DNA from: an uncultured Synergistales bacterium
GTDB lineage: Bacteria > Synergistota > Synergistia > Synergistales > Aminobacteriaceae
Length of the DNA stretch: 46,951 nucleotides
Assembly (NCBI GenBank): GCA_905233725.1
Contig: CAJOEM010000008.1
Coordinates: forward strand, 1-46,951
Direction of reading: 5' to 3'
Part shown: positions 1 to 38,736 of the stretch, in pieces
Numbering within the stretch: the first letter of the stretch is position 1
Layout: every line of letters starts with the position of its first letter
Program-made: the position numbers and the translations under genes
The notes under the pieces: model-generated
Told to the model about the DNA's origin: nothing
Seen by the model: only the letters and a program-made list of their open reading frames with translations
The model's database searches: none

Positions 1-437
1 CTCCCGTAGAAAAAGCTTCCCTCGTTGATTTCGCACAGCAACATTTCTTCAAGACACATCGCTTGCGCACAAAGCTGGACATCATCGCAAGAATCTGATT
101 TCGGTTCGCCGCTTTTGTATTCGACCGGATAAGGCAGCCATTTCCCATCATGAGTGTGAATTGATATGCCGTTTTTTGCTGCGTGGAATTCAACTACATC
201 ACACTGACCTGAGAGTCCCAATTCAAACGAATGCACTCTCAAGCCTCGTGTGATCAAAATATTGCCCCGCTTCTCGATTGCTTCTTCGTCATGAGCTTTC
301 TCGTGAAAAATCATTCCGTCTGCTGTCCTGCTGTTTTCGAGCCACTGCTGTTCAACATGAATCAAAGCCCATTGCCTGCGACAAAAAGCAAAGTGTTGCA
401 CTCCGGATAGCATGAGAAATTCATCTTCACTGTACAT
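1..437 (-). CDS. cas4: CRISPR-associated exonuclease Cas4 (partial, 3' end off window)
   Basis: This is a RecB-family nuclease that helps trim and orient prespacers during spacer acquisition with Cas1-Cas2. I translated it directly from the sequence: an ATG at 437 lies 7 nt after the cas7c stop, with AGGA a few bases upstream. The 145 visible residues show the N-terminal iron-sulfur Cys (FCRRQW, C19), a GQCDVVEF stretch with the nuclease Asp (D80) and the RecB motif VEYKSG (E106, K108). The C-terminal Cys cluster lies beyond the left edge. It is the fourth gene of the type I-C operon, and cas1 and cas2 would be expected next, outside the window. Identity is clear from motifs and position; completeness cannot be judged. 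Confidence 0.9.
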   Translation of the reverse strand, partial: MYSEDEFLMLSGVQHFAFCRRQWALIHVEQQWLENSRTADGMIFHEKAHDEEAIEKRGNILITRGLRVHSFELGLSGQCDVVEFHAAKNGISIHTHDGKWLPYPVEYKSGEPKSDSCDDVQLCAQAMCLEEMLLCEINEGSFFYG

Positions 438-444
438 TTACGTC

Positions 445-1305
445 CTAAATTCCGTTAATTATTTCGGGTTTCAGTCCGTCCAATTCAGCCAGCGTAATCT
501 CAAAATCATCGACTGATTTCGCAAGCTGAACATCGTTTTTCAATGCGATTTTCACGGAATCATGAACCTGCATCGAAGAATATTGACCGTCTTTCGTGTT
601 ATGTTTCCACCAGTAGACTTTCAGAACCGACATGCTTCCATCTGGTCTGGCTGCCGATGTATCATTAACGAATAGAGTGCGCAAAGCTTCTTTGATTTTC
701 TCCGCGTCTTCATCAGAAAATCCTGTTTTCTCAGCTAGTTGGACATTAATTGAACCTTTGATTTTGTACAATCCGAACTCAACAAAATGCTTCATGCCGA
801 GCGTATCCGAGCCTTTTTTATCGCCGGGTTCTAAATTAACGCTCTTCGTGATTTGAATGCTCTGAATATCGATTGGCGCACAACTCATAGCCTGATGAAT
901 CGAAACCGGTCCTCTGATGCCTATTGACACACCCTCACCTTTTTTTGCAGCGGTGAAAGTAAATATCTGTCCGAAACTTCTGACATCAATCCATTTTTCG
1001 CACGCAATTTTTCCCTTTTCCTCATCAGTTTTGCCTTTCGAATCGCTGGCTGAGAATGCTTTGTCATAACGTTCACGCAGTGACTTGCACTCATCAGCGC
1101 GTTTATCATCCGATTGCACGAAAATTTCCTCGCCCATGTCCAGCAAACGATTGCGAATTTTGCGTTTAATGCATACGTCCGAAATTTGTCCGTAACCCTC
1201 GTATGTTGTGCGTGGTCTGTTGCCATTCAACGGGTCGCCGTTGGGATTTGCAAGTTCTACTTTCACCAGTGCTACAAAATCAATTTTGTTCTTAAGTATA
1301 CTCAT
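445..1305 (-). CDS. cas7c: Type I-C Cascade backbone protein Cas7c (Csd2)
   Basis: Cas7c is the RNA-binding protein that polymerises along the crRNA to form the backbone of the type I-C effector complex. The 286-residue protein has the usual Cas7/Csd2 length and opening: a hydrophobic strand followed by ELANPNGDPLNGNRPRTTYEG, with the typical GxGxxSDVCIKRKIRN-like segment near residues 37-51. It is followed at once by cas4 and preceded by cas8c with a 2-nt gap, so translation is probably coupled. Nothing suggests truncation. The family assignment is confident from the N-terminal signature and the operon. Confidence 0.95.
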   Translation of the reverse strand: MSILKNKIDFVALVKVELANPNGDPLNGNRPRTTYEGYGQISDVCIKRKIRNRLLDMGEEIFVQSDDKRADECKSLRERYDKAFSASDSKGKTDEEKGKIACEKWIDVRSFGQIFTFTAAKKGEGVSIGIRGPVSIHQAMSCAPIDIQSIQITKSVNLEPGDKKGSDTLGMKHFVEFGLYKIKGSINVQLAEKTGFSDEDAEKIKEALRTLFVNDTSAARPDGSMSVLKVYWWKHNTKDGQYSSMQVHDSVKIALKNDVQLAKSVDDFEITLAELDGLKPEIINGI

Positions 1306-1307
1306 GA

Positions 1308-1676
1308 TTATTCTCCCTTCACATCTTTATTTCTTAGTTCCATTCGCTGCAGATAATAGCCCAGCAGATAATTATCGTCCAAACTCTTATTCATTGAAGA
1401 CGCGTCTTCTTCACGAAACATTGCTGCGATCTCGGAAATTTTCTTCCTGTAATTCTCCCTTGCGCCAGGGAAAAGTTTTTGGTAATACGGGATTAACAGG
1501 CTATCAAGTGTTTTCCAAGTTTGCATCGGGCGATTGACGAACACCGATTGAAGACGTATTGCATTGGGTTCACGATTCTCGCCGTCATCGTAAGTTACTC
1601 TCTCAATCTTTTCCAAAACCGCGAGTAAACGCCCAAAAAGATAGCTTCTATTCGAGTTATTCGGATCGAGCTTCAT
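1308..1676 (-). CDS. cas11c: Cas11c small subunit, internal in-frame start within cas8c
   Basis: Type I-C systems are known to make a Cas11 small subunit from an internal start in cas8c. Here codon 510 of cas8c is an ATG (1676-1674), and 11 nt upstream there is a full AGGAGGA ribosome-binding sequence (1687-1693). A match that strong inside a coding region is unlikely by chance. Translation from this ATG gives 122 residues ending at the cas8c stop, close to the size I recall for the known Cas11c. The product would form the inner filament of Cascade and help hold the DNA. The SD-to-ATG spacing is slightly long, so initiation strength is an inference. Confidence 0.75.
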   Translation of the reverse strand: MKLDPNNSNRSYLFGRLLAVLEKIERVTYDDGENREPNAIRLQSVFVNRPMQTWKTLDSLLIPYYQKLFPGARENYRKKISEIAAMFREEDASSMNKSLDDNYLLGYYLQRMELRNKDVKGE

Positions 1677-3203
1677 TGTAAAAGAATCCTCCTGTATTAA
1701 CTTTCTGTCAAATTTGTACTTGTTTATTGCAGCACACGCCGTCGATAAAACGTCCTCTCTGTTAGCGAACTCGCTGTAATTCTGCAAGTTTGACGCTTTT
1801 CGCACGAGCAACTGCAACATGTCTTTCGGAAACGGCAACTTGTCCAACATACATTTCACAAGCCTTTGATACTGTTCCGGCATGATCTTATCATCAACTT
1901 CGAGCTTTGCATAATCTTTCGAATTTTGCGATTTGTGTTCTACACCGTATGCGCATTGCACAATTTTCCCTATCGACGGTGAAAAATCCTGGTAATCATA
2001 TTTGTCGCTATCCTTACTTTTTCGGCGATAGAACCAATGGAATGTCTCAGCCCAATTCTGAACTCGTCCGAAAAATGTGCGAGCAGGTTGTTCGTTATAA
2101 TACGTGATTGACAATCTGCCTGGACTTGCGGCTTCAAGTGACATTACAACAACATTATCGCTTTCTGTGTACATGCCAGCAATTCCGTTTAGTGTTTTCT
2201 TAAGGCGTTGGATTTGAGAATCATTCTCCGAAAAATAGCGTCTATACTTCTCAATCTTATCATCGAAATCAAAACCTGCAAGAATATCCTTGAAAATATC
2301 AGACGTTTCTTGTTTGAACGATGGGCTCCAGCATATGAACGTGCGTTGATGTTTATTAGCACCTACAGTAAATCTATTATTTCTTAACAGCCATCTCAAA
2401 GCAGAATGCAGTTCCAGCGATGTTTCCGTCCCGATTGAACAGGCTTGTTCTGTTGTGACAAATCTTCCAAGAAATGTGAAGTCATTACTCTTGGGATCAT
2501 TATCATCTGAGGATATTAGCTTTGCAGTACCTATTATATTAGACGGATGCTTATTCATTAACACCTCATCAACACCGGAAATGTAGCAAAGTATTCTATC
2601 TTTGGCTTTCGATTGGCGATATTTTATGTACTGTTCGCTTAAGCTTAAATCTTCCCACGTAGCTGATTTTTCATCGTCTTCTCCTCCAATAACTCTGAAG
2701 CGCACGAATAATTTTCGGATTTCGACGGTACCTAACTTGCCTTTCTTAATATCTTCATCTGTGAGAATCCCGCTTTTAATCAGGTCACTTATAAGCGTTT
2801 CTTTTTGCAGATAATTATAAATCACTCTAACTTTTGGGTGCGAACAATCACTCTCTGCCCAGTCTTTCAAAGCTGAAATATACGAGTTGAAATGATTCCG
2901 CAATTTTTCCTGCCCCGAAACTTTGCTCAAATCTCCGGCAATATATTGCAGTTCGTCAGCCAGAGCGTGCGGATCGGATCCCGAAGTGCGCGCTAAGGAT
3001 TTTTCGGTGACGGGAATCAACGTTAAGACACCTTTTTTATCCAACAGCGATGCTGCTTTGAAATTGCCATTGATATCGACTGTTACCTCAATTTGAGCAT
3101 TATGATAATCATGATAAACCGGCGGAATTTTTGGAAGTCCGTTGTCATCTTTCGCATCGCAAAGCAAATCATAAGTTTGGCATAAAACCTGAGTCCATGA
3201 CAA
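1308..3203 (-). CDS. cas8c: Type I-C Cascade large subunit Cas8c (Csd1)
   Basis: Cas8c is the large subunit that recognises the PAM and recruits Cas3 to type I-C Cascade. The protein is 631 residues, within the family range, and sits between cas5c (stop 2 nt upstream) and cas7c (start 2 nt downstream), which is the canonical I-C order. The C-terminal 120 residues contain the MKLDPNNSNRSYLFGRLLAV segment typical of Csd1 tails, and this part also appears to be translated separately as Cas11c (see the 1308-1676 entry). I see no frameshift or stop. Confidence 0.93.
   Translation of the reverse strand: MSWTQVLCQTYDLLCDAKDDNGLPKIPPVYHDYHNAQIEVTVDINGNFKAASLLDKKGVLTLIPVTEKSLARTSGSDPHALADELQYIAGDLSKVSGQEKLRNHFNSYISALKDWAESDCSHPKVRVIYNYLQKETLISDLIKSGILTDEDIKKGKLGTVEIRKLFVRFRVIGGEDDEKSATWEDLSLSEQYIKYRQSKAKDRILCYISGVDEVLMNKHPSNIIGTAKLISSDDNDPKSNDFTFLGRFVTTEQACSIGTETSLELHSALRWLLRNNRFTVGANKHQRTFICWSPSFKQETSDIFKDILAGFDFDDKIEKYRRYFSENDSQIQRLKKTLNGIAGMYTESDNVVVMSLEAASPGRLSITYYNEQPARTFFGRVQNWAETFHWFYRRKSKDSDKYDYQDFSPSIGKIVQCAYGVEHKSQNSKDYAKLEVDDKIMPEQYQRLVKCMLDKLPFPKDMLQLLVRKASNLQNYSEFANREDVLSTACAAINKYKFDRKLIQEDSFTMKLDPNNSNRSYLFGRLLAVLEKIERVTYDDGENREPNAIRLQSVFVNRPMQTWKTLDSLLIPYYQKLFPGARENYRKKISEIAAMFREEDASSMNKSLDDNYLLGYYLQRMELRNKDVKGE
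1687..1693 (-). promoter_or_regulatory. Internal ribosome-binding site for Cas11c
   Basis: The minus strand reads AGGAGGA within cas8c, 11 nt before the in-frame ATG at 1676. It is a near-perfect match to the anti-Shine-Dalgarno sequence and is what supports an independently translated small subunit. Confidence 0.7.
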
Positions 3204-3204
3204 A

Positions 3205-3933
3205 TCACCCCACCTCGCTTTCTACAGAACTTATGTTTTGAATCTCGAAGCCGAATTTCTTTATATCCATTTTGCGCAAGGGCTTGTGTTGACACTCACA
3301 CGGTGTACAAAACTCTATCACGCCATTCTTCATAATCGGGCTCCAAAATCTGACGCACATATTGTCCTTTGTTTCCGGGACTTTGTCTGGATATGCCTCG
3401 TCAGCGTAAGTGATCCCGTGAACCATGTGGCCGAAATTCAGCTCAGCTATGTTATCGTAAAAGCCATCTCCCTCACCGAAAACACACGGCGAAACGTAAC
3501 CCTGACACTCACGTGCTCCCAAGAAAACATCACGTCTCCCACCACGCTCGATCATTCGTTTTGCCATGTTGTGATGTTTATTCTCGTTACGATCACATTC
3601 AAGTTCAGGACGATTCATATTCCAGACGAAATGCGCAACAACTTGATACCTGCAATCCTTCAGATACGTGTAATACGAAAGATCATTTCCACCATTGGCG
3701 TATTTCAGCGTGCGGATTCCCCTTGTTTCGGTTTGTATCGGATTCATGACGCGAACTTTGTCTATGATCCAGATAATTGTCGGTTTCCAGTAAACGCTGT
3801 GTAAAATTCCCTTCAAAGCTTCGTATGTCGGAATTTGATACGAAAACTTCTCGCCGCCGATTTTCGTAACCGGATCTGTAAACAGAGCATAATCTCCCCG
3901 AACTTCGAACTCAACGCTATTTCTGAATGCCAC
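3205..3933 (-). CDS. cas5c: Type I-C Cas5c (Cas5d) crRNA-processing endoribonuclease
   Basis: In type I-C systems Cas5 replaces Cas6: it cuts the pre-crRNA and stays bound to the 5' handle. The 242-residue protein has the RAMP opening [15 protein letters not shown]. By comparison with characterised Cas5d it carries a catalytic set of Tyr48 (LHSVYW) and Lys119-His120 (NENKHHN). A glycine-rich segment near residues 136-160 fits the family. It is the first gene of the operon, with GAGGTG upstream as ribosome-binding site. cas3, which usually precedes cas5 in this subtype, is missing here. Confidence 0.93.
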
Positions 3934-3971
3934 TCAACACACCTCAACTTTCATAAAAATTTCTCGCCTTT

Positions 3972-3999
3972 ACTGTAGCATGACTTCAACAAAATTCAA
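3972..3999 (-). promoter_or_regulatory. Candidate promoter for the cas operon
   Basis: The minus strand has TTGAAT (3999-3994), a 16-nt spacer and TACAGT (3977-3972), about 40 nt upstream of the cas5c start. Both boxes are imperfect. It lies immediately beside the IS605-like end, so the operon could also be read from a promoter inside that element. Confidence 0.35.
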
Positions 4000-4005
4000 T
4001 CCTTT

Positions 4006-4390
4006 GACATACTCCCCACGCCTAGGGGGATTCTAGTATCAACAACAACTGCCCACCGAAGCAGGTCTTAAGTCGTCTCCTCTAAGGGTCGATGCCCCAA
4101 CCCTTTATATTTCATAATAGCTAAAGCTAGGGGCTTTGCGTAGTTTTTTGGTAATGAACTTTCAACAAGTTACCAAAAACACACTCCGGGATTCTAACCC
4201 TTCAATGTGACACTACCAATCACCGATGATTATCCACATCAGTGAAATCTATGACGTTCCCCTATCTCAAAAAGTTTCACGACTCTTAACGACACCGTGT
4301 AACTCCGGAACGTTTCTGTCATTCCACTAGTTTCGGTCTAAACAGCAAAACCCCAAATACAACGCGACACATCGCGACTGTTATAAATTT
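4006..4390 (-). mobile_element. IS200/IS605-like right-end / omega-RNA-like remnant without a transposase gene
   Basis: Read on the minus strand, this block ends with a GAATCCCCC / GTGGGGAGTATGTCAA hairpin (stem TCCCC 4013-4017 with GGGGA 4026-4030), the form typical of the right ends of IS200/IS605-type elements downstream of tnpB. It is preceded by GCTTCGGTGGGC, also familiar from such ends. Further upstream are more hairpins: TTTTTGGTAA (4145-4154) with TTACCAAAAA (4170-4179), and AAGGGT/ACCCTT around the 4085-4106 region. The reading frames are broken by stops, so no intact TnpA or TnpB is present. The rightmost boundary is a guess. It may be a deleted element, a non-autonomous derivative, or a retained guide-type RNA. 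Confidence 0.55.
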
Positions 4391-4535
4391 TTAGTATTAT
4401 ATCACATCATAAATGCAAACGAAAATTCAAAATCCTAGCAAAAATTCTGTGTGTCAGGTCGAATTAATATAACTTAATATAACAGATTCTTCAGGTGAAT
4501 CCAGACGGATTTGGAATACAGTCGTTCTGTGAGTA
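4391..4535. other. AT-rich spacer with no gene seen
   Basis: This completes the 653-nt gap between cas5c and the RND gene. It has no plausible reading frame. It contains an exact 10-bp tandem duplication, TTAATATAAC twice at 4464-4483, and a small ACAG/CTGT hairpin near 4518-4530. No CRISPR-like array of spaced repeats is present. Confidence 0.6.
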
Positions 4536-4575
4536 AAAATTTCCCCCTCGCAGCAACATCACGGGGGGAAGATTT
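4536..4575 (-). terminator. Rho-independent terminator of the RND operon
   Basis: TTCCCCC (4541-4547) pairs with GGGGGAA (4564-4570) around a 16-nt loop, flanked by A and T runs on both sides. On the minus strand the stem is followed by ATTTTTAC. It begins 12 nt after the RND stop codon. Confidence 0.8.
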
Positions 4576-4586
4576 TTCTCGCAAGA

Positions 4587-7500
4587 TTATTTTTTCGGTG
4601 AAGGCACGTTATAAGCTATTGCTGTCATGACTGGAATGATTATTAATGTGAGAATCGTGCTGACTGTCAAACCTGACATAATCGTAACAGCCATCGGTCC
4701 GAATAACAAATCCCAGACTAACGGCAGCATTCCCAAAACCGTAGTCAAAGCCGACATAGCAACAGGTCTCAAGCGGCTGATTCCGTCCTCAACGATTGAC
4801 GTATACTTGTCTTTACCAGCTGCAAAATCCGCGCTGACTTGATCGAGCAAGACAATCGAATTTTTCGCGAGCATTCCGACCAAACTCAAAACTCCGACTA
4901 TTCCCAAAAAACTCACGTCCATATTAGCCAGCCATAATCCCCACGCAACTCCGATCAAAATCAATGGCAGCGATATGAAAATTATGATTGGTTGTCTGAA
5001 GCCGTTGAACAGGAATACCATAATCGTGAACATGATCAGAATCGCTGGAATATATGCTTTCGACATACCGTCCATTGATTCGCCGGATAATTCACCCTCA
5101 CCGCCCCATTCAAGCGTGTAACCCAGCGGCAAATTTATCGCTTCGATTTTAGGTTTTATGCGTTTCAACATTGCGTCCGCGTTTTTGCCGAGTTTAACTT
5201 CGCTCATGGCTGTGATATATCTGCTGCGGTCTCTGCGGTTGATAATATTATCTTCGAAGACGGTCTCAAAGCCGGAAATTACTGTCCCAAGTGGCACGGA
5301 TTTATTCGCCGACATTGACCAGATTGGCAACGAGCTGAGTAAATCTAATCTGTTGCGTTCTGAAGGCATGAATGCAGCTTTGATTGATAACGATTTGTCG
5401 CCGTCTCGAAACGTTCCGATTGTTGCGCCGGTAGTTGATGCAAGGATCGCGTAATTTATCAACGGGCGTCCAAGTCCTAAACTCTGCATTTGATCTTTCA
5501 GGATTACGGGCTTGATTACTTCGACGGGTTCGCGCCAGTTATCTCGAACAAATTCGTGTGAAGGGTCTTGTTCCATTATTTCGAGAGCCTGTTTCGCAAG
5601 TCCTCGCAGAATATTCGCGTCCTCACCGTAGAATCTCACGCCGATTTTCTCAGACATTCCGCTGCCGCGCGCAAATAATCTGCAATAGCCTGAAATTTCC
5701 GGCATATGTTCGTTCATGTACGCCTGAGTTTTCGCGACCATTGAGCGAGTATCTTTAGCATCGTGCAGTTCGACTATTAATTGCGAGAAAGCTAAATCTG
5801 AATCCGGCGGCGAATATGTCAGCATGAATCTTAATCCACCACCGCCGATAAATTGCGAAACATTTTTCACTTCGGGTTGTGAGCTGATATAATCGACGAG
5901 TTTCTGAGTAATTTTCTCCTGACCTGAGATCGAGATTCCTTCTTGGCTGTACAAATCTACGTTGTAATAGACTGTCTCAGCGTCCGGGAAAAACGACGTG
6001 TCAAGGCTCAAGAAAAGCATAATTGACGCTGCGAATATTGCAATCGTGATTAAAACCGTAAAGAATCTATGTCTCAAACATGTTTCCAGAATCGCGCGAT
6101 AAAATCTGAACATGAACTTGTCATACGGATCTGAATCGCCGTCATGATGTGAGACTTTCAGCATTAACTTGCCTAGTACAGGCGTGATTATCAGTGCAGC
6201 AAACCAGCTCAAGAACATCGAAATCGCCACAACCTGAAACAAACTCCGCAAATATTCTCCGGCTGAAGCATCTGACAAACCCGTCGGAGCAAACGCCATT
6301 ACAGCTATTAAAGTTCCGCCAAGCATCGCCCATTTCGAGCCTTCGACACATTCTGACGCGGCATCTTCGAGTTTTTTGCCACGTTCAACGCCGACCAGCA
6401 TTCCCTCGGAAACTACAATCGCGTTATCAACAAGTGACCCCAGCGCAATTATCAACGCAGCTAACGATACAGCCTGCAAATCTATTCCTGTGTAATTCAT
6501 GATTGCGAAAGTTCCGGAGACAGTTAATAATAACACCAGACCGATTATCAAACCCGAACTGAGTCCCATGAAGATTAACAAAACTCCGATTACGATTGCG
6601 AGAGATTCGCCTAGATTAATCAGGAAATCGTCAGTTGATTTTACGACTTGATCTGATTGCATGTAAATCTCGTTTAATTCGATCCCGACAGGTCTGAAAG
6701 CTTCGAGTTCTTTGAGGCGTTTCGATACAGCTCGCCCCATGTTCACGACGTTTCCGCCCTCCACTGTAGAAATTCCGATTGCGAGCGCAGGTCTGTTATT
6801 GAACTTCATTTTGAAACTTTGCGGCTCTGAATATGCGCGGCGAATATTTGCTATGTCTTTCAAGCGTATCAAATTTCCGCCAGCTCCGCCGATTACGAGA
6901 TCGCCAATGTCCTCGATTTTGAGAATTGCTCCGGTCGGCGAGATACGTATATAGCGATCTTCAAGTGTAATATTTCCCATCGGTGAAAGAGTGTTTTGCT
7001 GAGTTAGCGTGCTCAAAATTGCCAGCGGAGATAATCCCAGAGCCGAAAATCTTGAAGCCGAAAATTCCACGTAAATGCATTCTTCCTGTTCACCAAGAAT
7101 TTTCACACTTGCAACGCCATCGACAAGCACGAGATTTTTCTTCAGGAAGTCCGCGTAATCGTATAATTCTTTCATCGTGTAGCCGTCGCCGATTAACGCG
7201 TAATATTGTCCGTAAACATCGCCGAAATCGTTGTTAATCAAAATCGTTGTGCCAGTTGGCATGTAAACCTGAGCGTCATTAATTTTTTGTCGCAAAATAT
7301 CCCAGATTTCCGGAAGCTCTGAGCTTGTGTATTTGTCTTTTATATCAACGTATACGACTGCCAGACCAGGAGTTGAGCGTGACCTGATATGTTTGATTTC
7401 ACCCATTGCTTGAAGCGCATCCTCGATTCGTGACGTAACTTCCTGTTCGACTTCATAAGCACTCGCGCCCGGGTAAACTGCACTGACAACGGCGGTCTTA

Positions 7501-11175: not shown

Positions 11176-11970
11176 TTATTTACCTGATAAAAAATATTGC
11201 AACGTAGCGATTATGATCGGGATCACAGCTGTCATTAAGCCCAATAACGCGAACCATTTGCTCTGATTCTTTTCCATGTTATCCAATCTTTTGTCAACAG
11301 CGTCAAAGCGTTTGTCAATAGCATCGAATTTCTCGTCTTGAACTTTGAAACGAGCGTTGACTTCTGTTCTGAACTCGCGGAACTCTGATGACAAATCCGA
11401 AATTGCTTTTGTGTTTGCGTCGACTTTGCGATTCAGGGCAACTAAATCTTTCTTGAGCCCGGAAACATCGGTCTTCAATTCCGAGACATCTTGCTTCAGG
11501 ATCGAAACATCTTTCTTGATCCCAGCAGCTTCGACCTTCAGCTCAGTAACATCTTGCTTCAGGATCGAAACGTCCTTCTTGATACCAGCGACTTCGATTT
11601 TCAGCCCGGTAATATCTTGTTGCAGCGTCGAAACGTCCTTCTTGATACCAGCAGCTTTGACCTTCATATCATTAGCATATTGTTTCAGCGTCGAAACGTC
11701 CTTCTTGATACCGGCAGCTTCACCCTTCATATCATTAGCATCTTGTTTCAGCGTAGAAGCGTCTTTCTTCAGGACTGCAGAATCTTGCGTGAGATTCGAA
11801 ACATCTTTTCCAACATTGGCAACTTCGAGCTTAATATCCGAAACATCATCTTGCAAATCATCGACCTTTTTTTCCACGACGTTTATGTCTTTCCTGAGAC
11901 TGTAAGGGCTTAAATACGCAAGATCAATATCATCGTTAAAGTTAAACGTTTTCCTAATCATGTCAGGCAT
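11176..11970 (-). CDS. Coiled-coil protein with 21-residue repeats and a C-terminal membrane anchor, embedded in the T2SS operon
   Basis: I do not recognise this as a standard Gsp protein. The 264-residue product has a short N-terminal region, then six 21-residue units (residues 66-191, each three heptads, core GIKKDVSTLKQDxxxLKxEA). A second coiled segment follows (FDAIDKRFDAVDKRLDNMEK), then a hydrophobic helix at about 239-262 (WFALLGLMTAVIPIIIATLQ). This predicts a long rod tethered to the membrane at its C-terminus. The organisation resembles XhlA-like or other tail-anchored coiled-coil proteins. It lies between gspE (3-nt gap, strong GGAGG) and gspF (2-nt gap), so it is co-translated with the secretion motor. 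Role unknown; a scaffold or spacer at the inner membrane is an inference. Confidence 0.85.
   Translation of the reverse strand: MPDMIRKTFNFNDDIDLAYLSPYSLRKDINVVEKKVDDLQDDVSDIKLEVANVGKDVSNLTQDSAVLKKDASTLKQDANDMKGEAAGIKKDVSTLKQYANDMKVKAAGIKKDVSTLQQDITGLKIEVAGIKKDVSILKQDVTELKVEAAGIKKDVSILKQDVSELKTDVSGLKKDLVALNRKVDANTKAISDLSSEFREFRTEVNARFKVQDEKFDAIDKRFDAVDKRLDNMEKNQSKWFALLGLMTAVIPIIIATLQYFLSGK
11398..11775 (-). repeat. Six 63-bp in-frame repeats (21 codons each)
   Basis: The coiled-coil gene carries six consecutive 63-bp units, recognisable in the DNA by recurring CTTCTTGATACCAGCAG-like and CGAAACGTC-like words on the plus strand. The middle units are nearly identical and the outer ones diverged, as expected if the rod grew by unequal recombination. 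Confidence 0.85.
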
Positions 11971-37014: not shown

Positions 37015-38736
37015 ATGATGAATCATTTACGGAATCACATGAAGGGAATAATGCTTGTAATTGTAATTGCGTTTCTTGCGTCTACGTTTCTGATGTACGA
37101 GCGTGGCAGCAGCAGAAGATCGGGAGACGCTTCAGACGGAAGAACGATTGCTGATTACGAGGTCGCTAAAATCAACGGCAGGTCTTTGATGCGTTCGGAA
37201 CTTGATCGACGTTTGAGACTTTATCTTGAGAATTACGCCAGCCGTAACGCGTCATCACTCGACAGCGCATCACTTTACAAAGCAGCGTTAGACCAGGCAG
37301 TACTCGAATCGCAAATTGCTAAGGAAATCGAACAGCACGGGATCAAAATTTCTGACGCAGAAGCAGACTTGGAAATGAAATCTCAGGCAGACACGTATTA
37401 CGTCACACGTGAAGCTTTCTACCAGCAACTTGCTCAGCGCGGAATGAAAGTCGAAGATTACAAACGCAATCTCGCGAATCAAATGGCAACTCAGAGATTA
37501 TTGCAGATGGAAATTGGCGAAGTCGTAATCAGTCAGGACAGGGCGTTGGAATTTTACGACACGATGAAGGGCTTAATCTACACGAAACCTGAAGGCTTCA
37601 TGGTACAGCTTGCTGAGTTCAAGAACGAATCTGCAGCGGAAAATCTTAGAGCAAGAATCTTAAGCGGCGATGCTTGGGCAGCGATTGTATCGAACGATGA
37701 GCTGAATTCTTCTGATGTTTTGAATTTCACGCGTGAGCCAGTATTTTTGCCGACATCAGCATTTACGACCGGAGTTTTCCAGTCACTTGCGTCACTTGAT
37801 GTTGGTCAGGTTAGCGATGTTTTCGAAGTTTCAAGCGAGGATTTCGCTGTTGGCATGAAAGCTGAACACGTTGATGAGACTATAACGCCGTTCGACGATG
37901 TTAGTGCGGACATAATTTCAGTTTTGACGCAGCAGGAGCAGTCCAAGAGAATCAGCGATTACGAAGCGTCATTGCTAGCGAAAGCAGAATTGCTTGTGAA
38001 TGATCCGTCATTGTTCGAGAAAGCCCCGACTTCAGACGACGTAGCCGGTGAATCAGAATCTGAGCCTGAGATTGAAGAAGTCGCGGAAGTTGAAGCCGAA
38101 CCAGAATCAGGAGATGTAGCCGCTGCATCTGAAACTGCAACACCAGAAGTTTCGACAGAGCCAGAAGCTGCTAAATCAGAAGTAGAATCTGTGCCGGAAG
38201 CTGTGAAACCTGAGACTGCATCTGAAACTGCAACCCCAGAAGTCGCGACAGAGCCGGAAGCTGCTAAATCAGAAGTTGAATCTGTGCCAGAAGCTGTGAA
38301 ATCTGAGGCTGAATCTGAAACTGCAACCCCAGAAGTTTCGACAGAGCCAGAAGCTGCTAAATCAGAAGTAGAATCTGTGCCGGAAGCTGTGAAATCTGAG
38401 GCTGCATCTGAAACTGCAACGCCAGAAGTTTCGACAGAGCCGGAAGCTGTGAAACCTGAAGCTGCATCTGAAACTGCAACACCAGAAGTCGCGACAGAGC
38501 CGGAAGCTGCTAAATCAGAAGTAGAATCTGCGCCAGAAGCTGTGAAATCTGAGGCTGCATCTGAAACTGCAACACCAGAAGTTTCGACAGAGCCGGAAGC
38601 TGCTAAATCAGAAGTTGAATCTGCGCCGGAAGCTGTGAAAACTGAGGCTGAATCAGAGATTGCAAGTTCGGAAGTTACACCTGCAACACAAGAAACACAA
38701 ACTCAGGAACCCGGAGAAGCTGCAAAAACTGAGTAG
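37015..38736 (+). CDS. PpiD/SurA-like membrane-anchored periplasmic chaperone with a long tandem-repeat tail
   Basis: Proteins of this type assist folding of exported proteins at the membrane. The 573-residue product has an N-terminal anchor (about 10-28), a SurA_N-like helical domain (about 45-190, AKINGRSLMRSELDRRLRLY) and a degenerate parvulin-like region (about 195-310). From residue 371 on there is a repetitive Glu/Ala/Pro/Val tail of 175 residues, then a short acidic end. The tail would extend into the periplasm and has no known function. It has GAGAGGGAAGG before its ATG and is followed by carB after 42 nt. Isomerase activity is uncertain. Confidence 0.82.
   Translation: MMNHLRNHMKGIMLVIVIAFLASTFLMYERGSSRRSGDASDGRTIADYEVAKINGRSLMRSELDRRLRLYLENYASRNASSLDSASLYKAALDQAVLESQIAKEIEQHGIKISDAEADLEMKSQADTYYVTREAFYQQLAQRGMKVEDYKRNLANQMATQRLLQMEIGEVVISQDRALEFYDTMKGLIYTKPEGFMVQLAEFKNESAAENLRARILSGDAWAAIVSNDELNSSDVLNFTREPVFLPTSAFTTGVFQSLASLDVGQVSDVFEVSSEDFAVGMKAEHVDETITPFDDVSADIISVLTQQEQSKRISDYEASLLAKAELLVNDPSLFEKAPTSDDVAGESESEPEIEEVAEVEAEPESGDVAAASETATPEVSTEPEAAKSEVESVPEAVKPETASETATPEVATEPEAAKSEVESVPEAVKSEAESETATPEVSTEPEAAKSEVESVPEAVKSEAASETATPEVSTEPEAVKPEAASETATPEVATEPEAAKSEVESAPEAVKSEAASETATPEVSTEPEAAKSEVESAPEAVKTEAESEIASSEVTPATQETQTQEPGEAAKTE
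38125..38649 (+). repeat. Six 31-codon tandem repeats (one shortened) in the chaperone gene
   Basis: The region holds five full 93-bp units and one 60-bp unit (the fourth, lacking 11 codons). The consensus starts ASETATPEVSTEPEAAKSEV and runs on with ESVPEAVKSEA. Units are close to identical in DNA, which indicates recent expansion, and the missing 33 bp keep the frame. Confidence 0.92.

Follow-up and report, generated by a model that had tools for sequence, protein, structure and literature searches.

A probable relic of an IS608-type element upstream of a type I-C cas operon in an uncultured Synergistales bacterium

Described systems and the locus upstream of cas5c

IS608 (ISHp608) has the cleavage sites TTAC (CL) and TCAA (CR), the guide tetranucleotides AAAG (GL) and GAAT (GR), and a preference for C after the TTAC (PMC5934647, in part). 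Terminal-only IS605 elements that arose by core deletion are described from Haloquadratum, where an element of 1500 bp was shortened to 52 bp (PMC3119063, in part), and one ends-only IS605 sequence is described from Halanaerobium (PMC7290912, in part). The omega-RNA (reRNA) of ISDra2 TnpB has a scaffold formed by the 3′ end of tnpB together with the right end of the element, and the guide comes from the flank (PMC8612924, in part).

The locus treated here is in a 46,951-base stretch of DNA from an uncultured Synergistales bacterium; this whole stretch is referred to as the window. All five IS608 features are also found at the locus (PMC5934647, in part), but tnpA is absent, tnpB is down to 20 codons and both hairpins are damaged. 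Like the PATE and terminal-only elements it is an ends-only derivative through core loss (PMC3119063 and PMC7290912, each in part); unlike them it is present as a single copy and shows no sign of amplification. Scaffold make-up and the position of the guide in the flank are those of the ISDra2 omega-RNA (PMC8612924, in part), but the scaffold is damaged and there is no TnpB in cis.

Judged by its sequence, minus strand 4150–4004 is an internally deleted IS200/IS605 element of the IS608 type, a relic of 147 bp between its TTAC and TCAA borders (Table 1). It is very probable that the relic is of IS608-type origin with a core deletion and damage to the right hairpin, and that the remainder of the region up to 4390 is an unrelated repeat. 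The original prediction of an IS605-type block on the cas5c strand and directly upstream of that gene holds as to strand and place, as the relic is on that strand and ends 70 bases before the start codon (3933). It does not hold as to extent: 4006–4390 had been taken as one block, whereas the IS605 part stops at 4150.

Table 1. Features of the region upstream of cas5c, and related elements in congeners
Feature	Position	Strand	Remarks
cas4, cut off	3-437		64.4 bits vs cut-off 65
cas7	445-1305		type I-C operon
cas8c	1308-3203		type I-C operon
cas5c, at the head of the type I-C operon in this genome	3205-3933	-	
Flank in guide position of the relic	3984-4003	-	no convincing second target in genome
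Right end/omega-RNA scaffold remnant	4004-4105	-	GAAT 4033-4030; hairpin 4029-4014 without GCCTT; TCAA 4007-4004
tnpB tail: final 20 codons (VGASTLRGDDLRPASVGSCC) and stop	4039-4101	-	in frame; TAA just before
Left-end remnant (inner border approximate)	4113-4150	-	AAAG guide 4137-4134; hairpin CCCCTAGCTTTAGCTA 4133-4118; 3′ GGGG foot missing
TTAC target tetranucleotide, left cleavage site	4151-4154	-	stays in flank; followed by C, as IS608 prefers
Non-coding repeat, not IS605	4174-4389	-	hairpin 4209-4180 common to the array on contig C37
Mini-elements of congeners			L022, L044, L152, L153, L157, L158, L159, L161, L162, L166; L154 and L156 cut by contig ends

The two ends of the relic

The right-end string with its TCAA terminus, as originally predicted, is present. 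Minus strand 4033–4004 reads GAATCCCCCTAGGCGTGGGGAGTATGTCAA, i.e. GAATCCCCC...GTGGGGAGT...TCAA, and the window contains a single occurrence of each core, GGGGAGTATGTCAA and AGAATCCCC. A search on the logic of GAAT, a hairpin of at least 4 bp and TCAA finds 8 sites in the window and 3–10 sites in 20 Markov windows. This is chance level, and therefore the IS605 assignment rests on homology and not on the motif.

The homology is well beyond chance level. The relic right end shows 90% identity over 105–107 nt (E ~1e-34) to the 3′ terminus of an intact tnpB elsewhere in this genome. When the genome (1.87 Mb, 57 contigs) was searched with the block, the matches were the block itself, C13:28041-28145 (90%, the block's first 100 bases) and C37:245-289 (45 bp). 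The match on contig C13 is the end of an open frame of 378 amino acids with matches to Pfam PF07282 and PF01385 and to two TnpB families, NF040570 and, under its own cut-off, NF038281. A search for full IS605 copies, which had been recommended, thus yields one intact tnpB, on C13, and apart from the 20-codon tail in the relic this is the only TnpB of the genome. That tail is also the one exception to the earlier statement that no transposase or TnpB frame survives at the locus.

Related sequences are found in other genomes as well. A 501-base stretch was matched in 14 of 41 genomes, all of one genus. Plasmid matches to a 491-base query have 72–78% identity to stretches of Campylobacter and Helicobacter (E down to 6e-12 among the matches listed); those listed are confined to the right-end portion of the query (about 4112–4001), and most are on features annotated as RNA-guided endonuclease TnpB. 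The phage search with the same query gave a single match, starting at query base 344.

The left end is recognized by AAAGCCCCTAGCTTTAGCTA at 4137–4118, the left-end hairpin of the same IS605 family, which is present in 6 of 25 genomes according to a pattern search that tolerated at most 2 mismatches. By eye, most left ends among the matches listed start after TTAT or TTAC and continue with C and an A-rich stretch. The cleavage sites TTAC and TCAA and the guide tetranucleotides AAAG and GAAT at the feet of the hairpins are all in place in the relic. The left hairpin, on the other hand, is without the GGGG that pairs with CCCC. Nineteen left ends were compared: a simple rule for the 3′ foot is satisfied by 12, four more have a foot that is G-rich by eye, and the relic, L010 and L013 have no such foot.

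We infer the following order and mechanism of events. An ancestral IS608-type element that carried tnpB, and perhaps tnpA, would have inserted 3′ of a TTAC. A core deletion would have spared the left-end hairpin and the last 20 codons of tnpB and removed all that was between them; an additional deletion of 5 nt would have damaged the right-end/omega-RNA hairpin. The relic is most likely inert today, because a TnpA that could mobilize it was not found in the genome and the guide scaffold is broken.

Guide scaffold and mobility

Fourteen right ends, including those of the relic and of C13, were aligned and give a scaffold of 34 pairs in which 95.9% of cells are paired and 15 pairs show two-sided changes. 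On all five measures, each of 500 shuffles falls short of the observed value, and slid versions remain far from it. Covariation in these right ends supports the terminal helix, which the 5-nt loss breaks in the relic; the upstream helices are kept and can still pair. Relative to shuffles, the whole scaffold folds with z −0.61 in the relic and z −2.66 in C13.

These data bear on the suggestion that the relic is an orphan omega-RNA, transcribed and loaded into the C13 TnpB, which would then bind or cut at a site that matches 4003–3984. A TnpB of intact length is available in trans, the upstream helices remain pairable, and a TGATATAAT box is found at 4404–4396, just upstream of the neighbouring repeat. 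However, the box was not flagged by the promoter scan, which found no promoter belonging to the element, the terminal hairpin is minus 5 nt, and the folding is no better than that of shuffles. Nor is there a clear second target in the genome: a search with the flank finds 9 sites including the relic itself, compared with 2 for a reversed control pattern, and the best non-self site has 2 mismatches and the others 3. With one copy, a damaged hairpin and a fold far weaker than that of C13, a functional orphan guide RNA is unsupported, and this reading of the locus is improbable.

The original prediction also proposed comparison with RNA libraries. Rfam at gathering score gave no match in the whole window, omega-RNA and HEARO included; by E-value it gave 3 sub-threshold matches within 3950–4600 (E up to 5), none of them HEARO, and nothing usable on C37 and the congener loci. 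It was the homologous copies in the genome and the genus that decided the matter instead.

A non-autonomous element had been suggested too, and with respect to class this was right, as the relic is an ends-only derivative. Could it still be moved by TnpA in trans, as a PATE-like mobile element? Both ends, the guide tetranucleotides and the target are all present, and in congener G009 a TnpA gene is found next to a TnpB of this kind (L019). Yet the deleted form has one copy in the genome, whereas the mark of PATEs is several copies with the same deletion. No Y1 transposase (TnpA, PF01797) was detected in the genome or the relic, while the control matched in 5 of 14 named genomes; the assembly, which consists of 57 contigs and is an estimated 97.9% complete, may lack a TnpA copy. 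Both subterminal hairpins are weakened as well: the left has lost its 3′ foot, and the right, without the GCCTT (5 nt) of C13, has a DNA folding energy of −3.8 kcal/mol, against −9.0 kcal/mol in C13. Retained mobility is very improbable, and a decayed relic remains the preferred reading.

The neighbouring repeat

The hairpins between about 4160 and 4390 had been counted as part of the IS605 block, but over half of the interval originally given (4006–4390) is an unrelated repeat. Two collinear pieces (4342–4303 and 4218–4174) are common to the window and contig C37 (L040:1-820, G000:C37), where at least three degenerate copies of the non-coding unit are found in the first 820 bp, behind a transporter-like gene. 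The contig ends inside the array, and therefore the array may be longer. The part common to the window and C37 forms a hairpin whose loop, about 7 bases long, is T-loop-like; ARAGORN finds no tRNA in about 4160–4390 or on C37.

A covariance model made from three copies was run, under the stricter filters meant for large searches, against 180 genomes from the order. It finds just those three copies, with no match in the other 179 genomes. The exact hairpin pattern has 0 matches in viral_contigs and 0 in genome_contigs. Folding of the repeat is unremarkable (z −1.97 and −0.94). In 15 comparisons with the 5′ hairpin of the congeners' mini-elements described below, between 4 and 270 of 500 shuffles were as good.

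The region was also considered as the 5′ part of an omega-RNA. This was rejected, as the region is outside the TTAC and the left end and is absent from other genomes that have the right end. The repeat is unrelated to IS605 and genome-specific, and nothing links it to IS605 or to cas.

Long tandem repeats occur elsewhere in the window, at 38122–38665 and 11486–11769, with periods that are multiples of 3 (93, 153, 246 and 63, 126, respectively). The latter is inside the open frame 11176–11970.

The cas operon

Family matches assign cas5c, cas8c and cas7 to type I-C. The genome's only Cas3 HD match is not upstream of cas5c and is found on another contig (L063:4157-6625, G000:C34), directly behind smpB and the tmRNA gene (ssrA); it is an 822-amino-acid frame in which both Cas3 domain models score over the cut-off. 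Relatives of cas5c in named genomes number 310. Among the best 80 of these, cas3 aligns 17–486 nt upstream of cas5 in 78, and in the remaining two the loci end too early, 525 and 75 nt upstream of cas5. The best cas5c identity is 73%, the top matches are mostly from Lachnospiraceae and other Clostridia, and cas5 was found in 0 of 15 congeners searched. The operon was therefore probably acquired and later split. A search of 3900–4600 with Cas3 ends from 8 of 12 chosen relatives (4 were dropped) finds no cas3 remnant (best E 0.17), and nothing was found that ties the relic to the split.

That the region is a leader or regulatory RNA now controlling cas expression has a very slight probability and no support in anything found: in its favour are only position and strand, 70 bases upstream of cas5c, and an operon no longer headed by cas3, but as a sequence the right end is that of an ordinary transposon, the neighbouring repeat is also on C37 away from any cas gene, and cas3 and not such a leader occupies the place in 78 of the 80 best relatives. 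The minus-strand promoter scan finds one promoter-like site (4219–4191), fewer than the shuffle mean of 1.8.

TnpB-less mini-elements of congeners

Of interest also are 12 right ends without a TnpB frame in six congeners (G002, 3; G005, 1; G010, 2; G011, 1; G012, 2; G014, 3). A conserved 5′ hairpin of the type AGGTTAAGCAGGGGTGAAATCCGCTAGCCT precedes the right end, and two of the 12 are cut inside this hairpin by a contig end. In the eight copies that have the region, the hairpin starts just after a TATAAT-like (−10-like) box. The distance from the hairpin to the tip of the right end is 150–162 nt in the nine mini-elements measured, and six of the eight with enough DNA have a left end recognizable by eye. 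The twelve right flanks, which would be the guides, are all different.

Nine copies were aligned, leaving aside L161, which is near-identical to L159, and the cut-off L154 and L156. The alignment has 38 pairs; 95.9% of cells are paired, and two-sided changes are seen in 15 pairs. On four of the five measures no shuffle out of 500 equals the alignment, and on the fifth two do. Rfam gives no match in the six mini-element loci submitted. No description of such elements was found in the open-access literature, judged by title or the start of the abstract. It should be pointed out that stand-alone omega-RNAs have been reported for IscB.

On sequence grounds, the mini-elements look like possible stand-alone guide-RNA genes with a complete omega-RNA scaffold. 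A broader reading is possible, though rather doubtful: the IS605 of the genus may have given rise to TnpB-less guide-RNA transposons of about 265 bp, each with a left end, a sigma-70-like −10 box, the 5′ hairpin, a full omega-RNA scaffold and a flank that serves as guide. TnpA and TnpB would act in trans, and each copy would be a stand-alone guide-RNA gene. The relic in the window would then be a cousin that underwent a deletion of its own and decayed, and it might still feed the C13 TnpB or compete for it.

TnpB-less elements of another, longer kind are L021 (G002:C230), about 416 bp in length, and L169 = L010 (G010:C5). The inner non-coding sequence is common to the two species. At the right end of L021 there is a sub-threshold match to HgcC, an archaeal RNA (24.2 bits, gathering score 50; E 0.011).

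Significance

The relic is ordinary for its kind, and the suggested cas-controlling guide RNA is thereby off the list. The neighbouring repeat and the mini-elements of congeners are leads worth keeping. Omega-RNAs that are found immediately by comparing genomes of the genus escape a curated RNA library. Should the mini-elements prove to be genuine guide-RNA genes, they would be selfish elements that consist of an RNA guide only, and they would offer a direct way of asking whether a single TnpB acts in trans for many loci.
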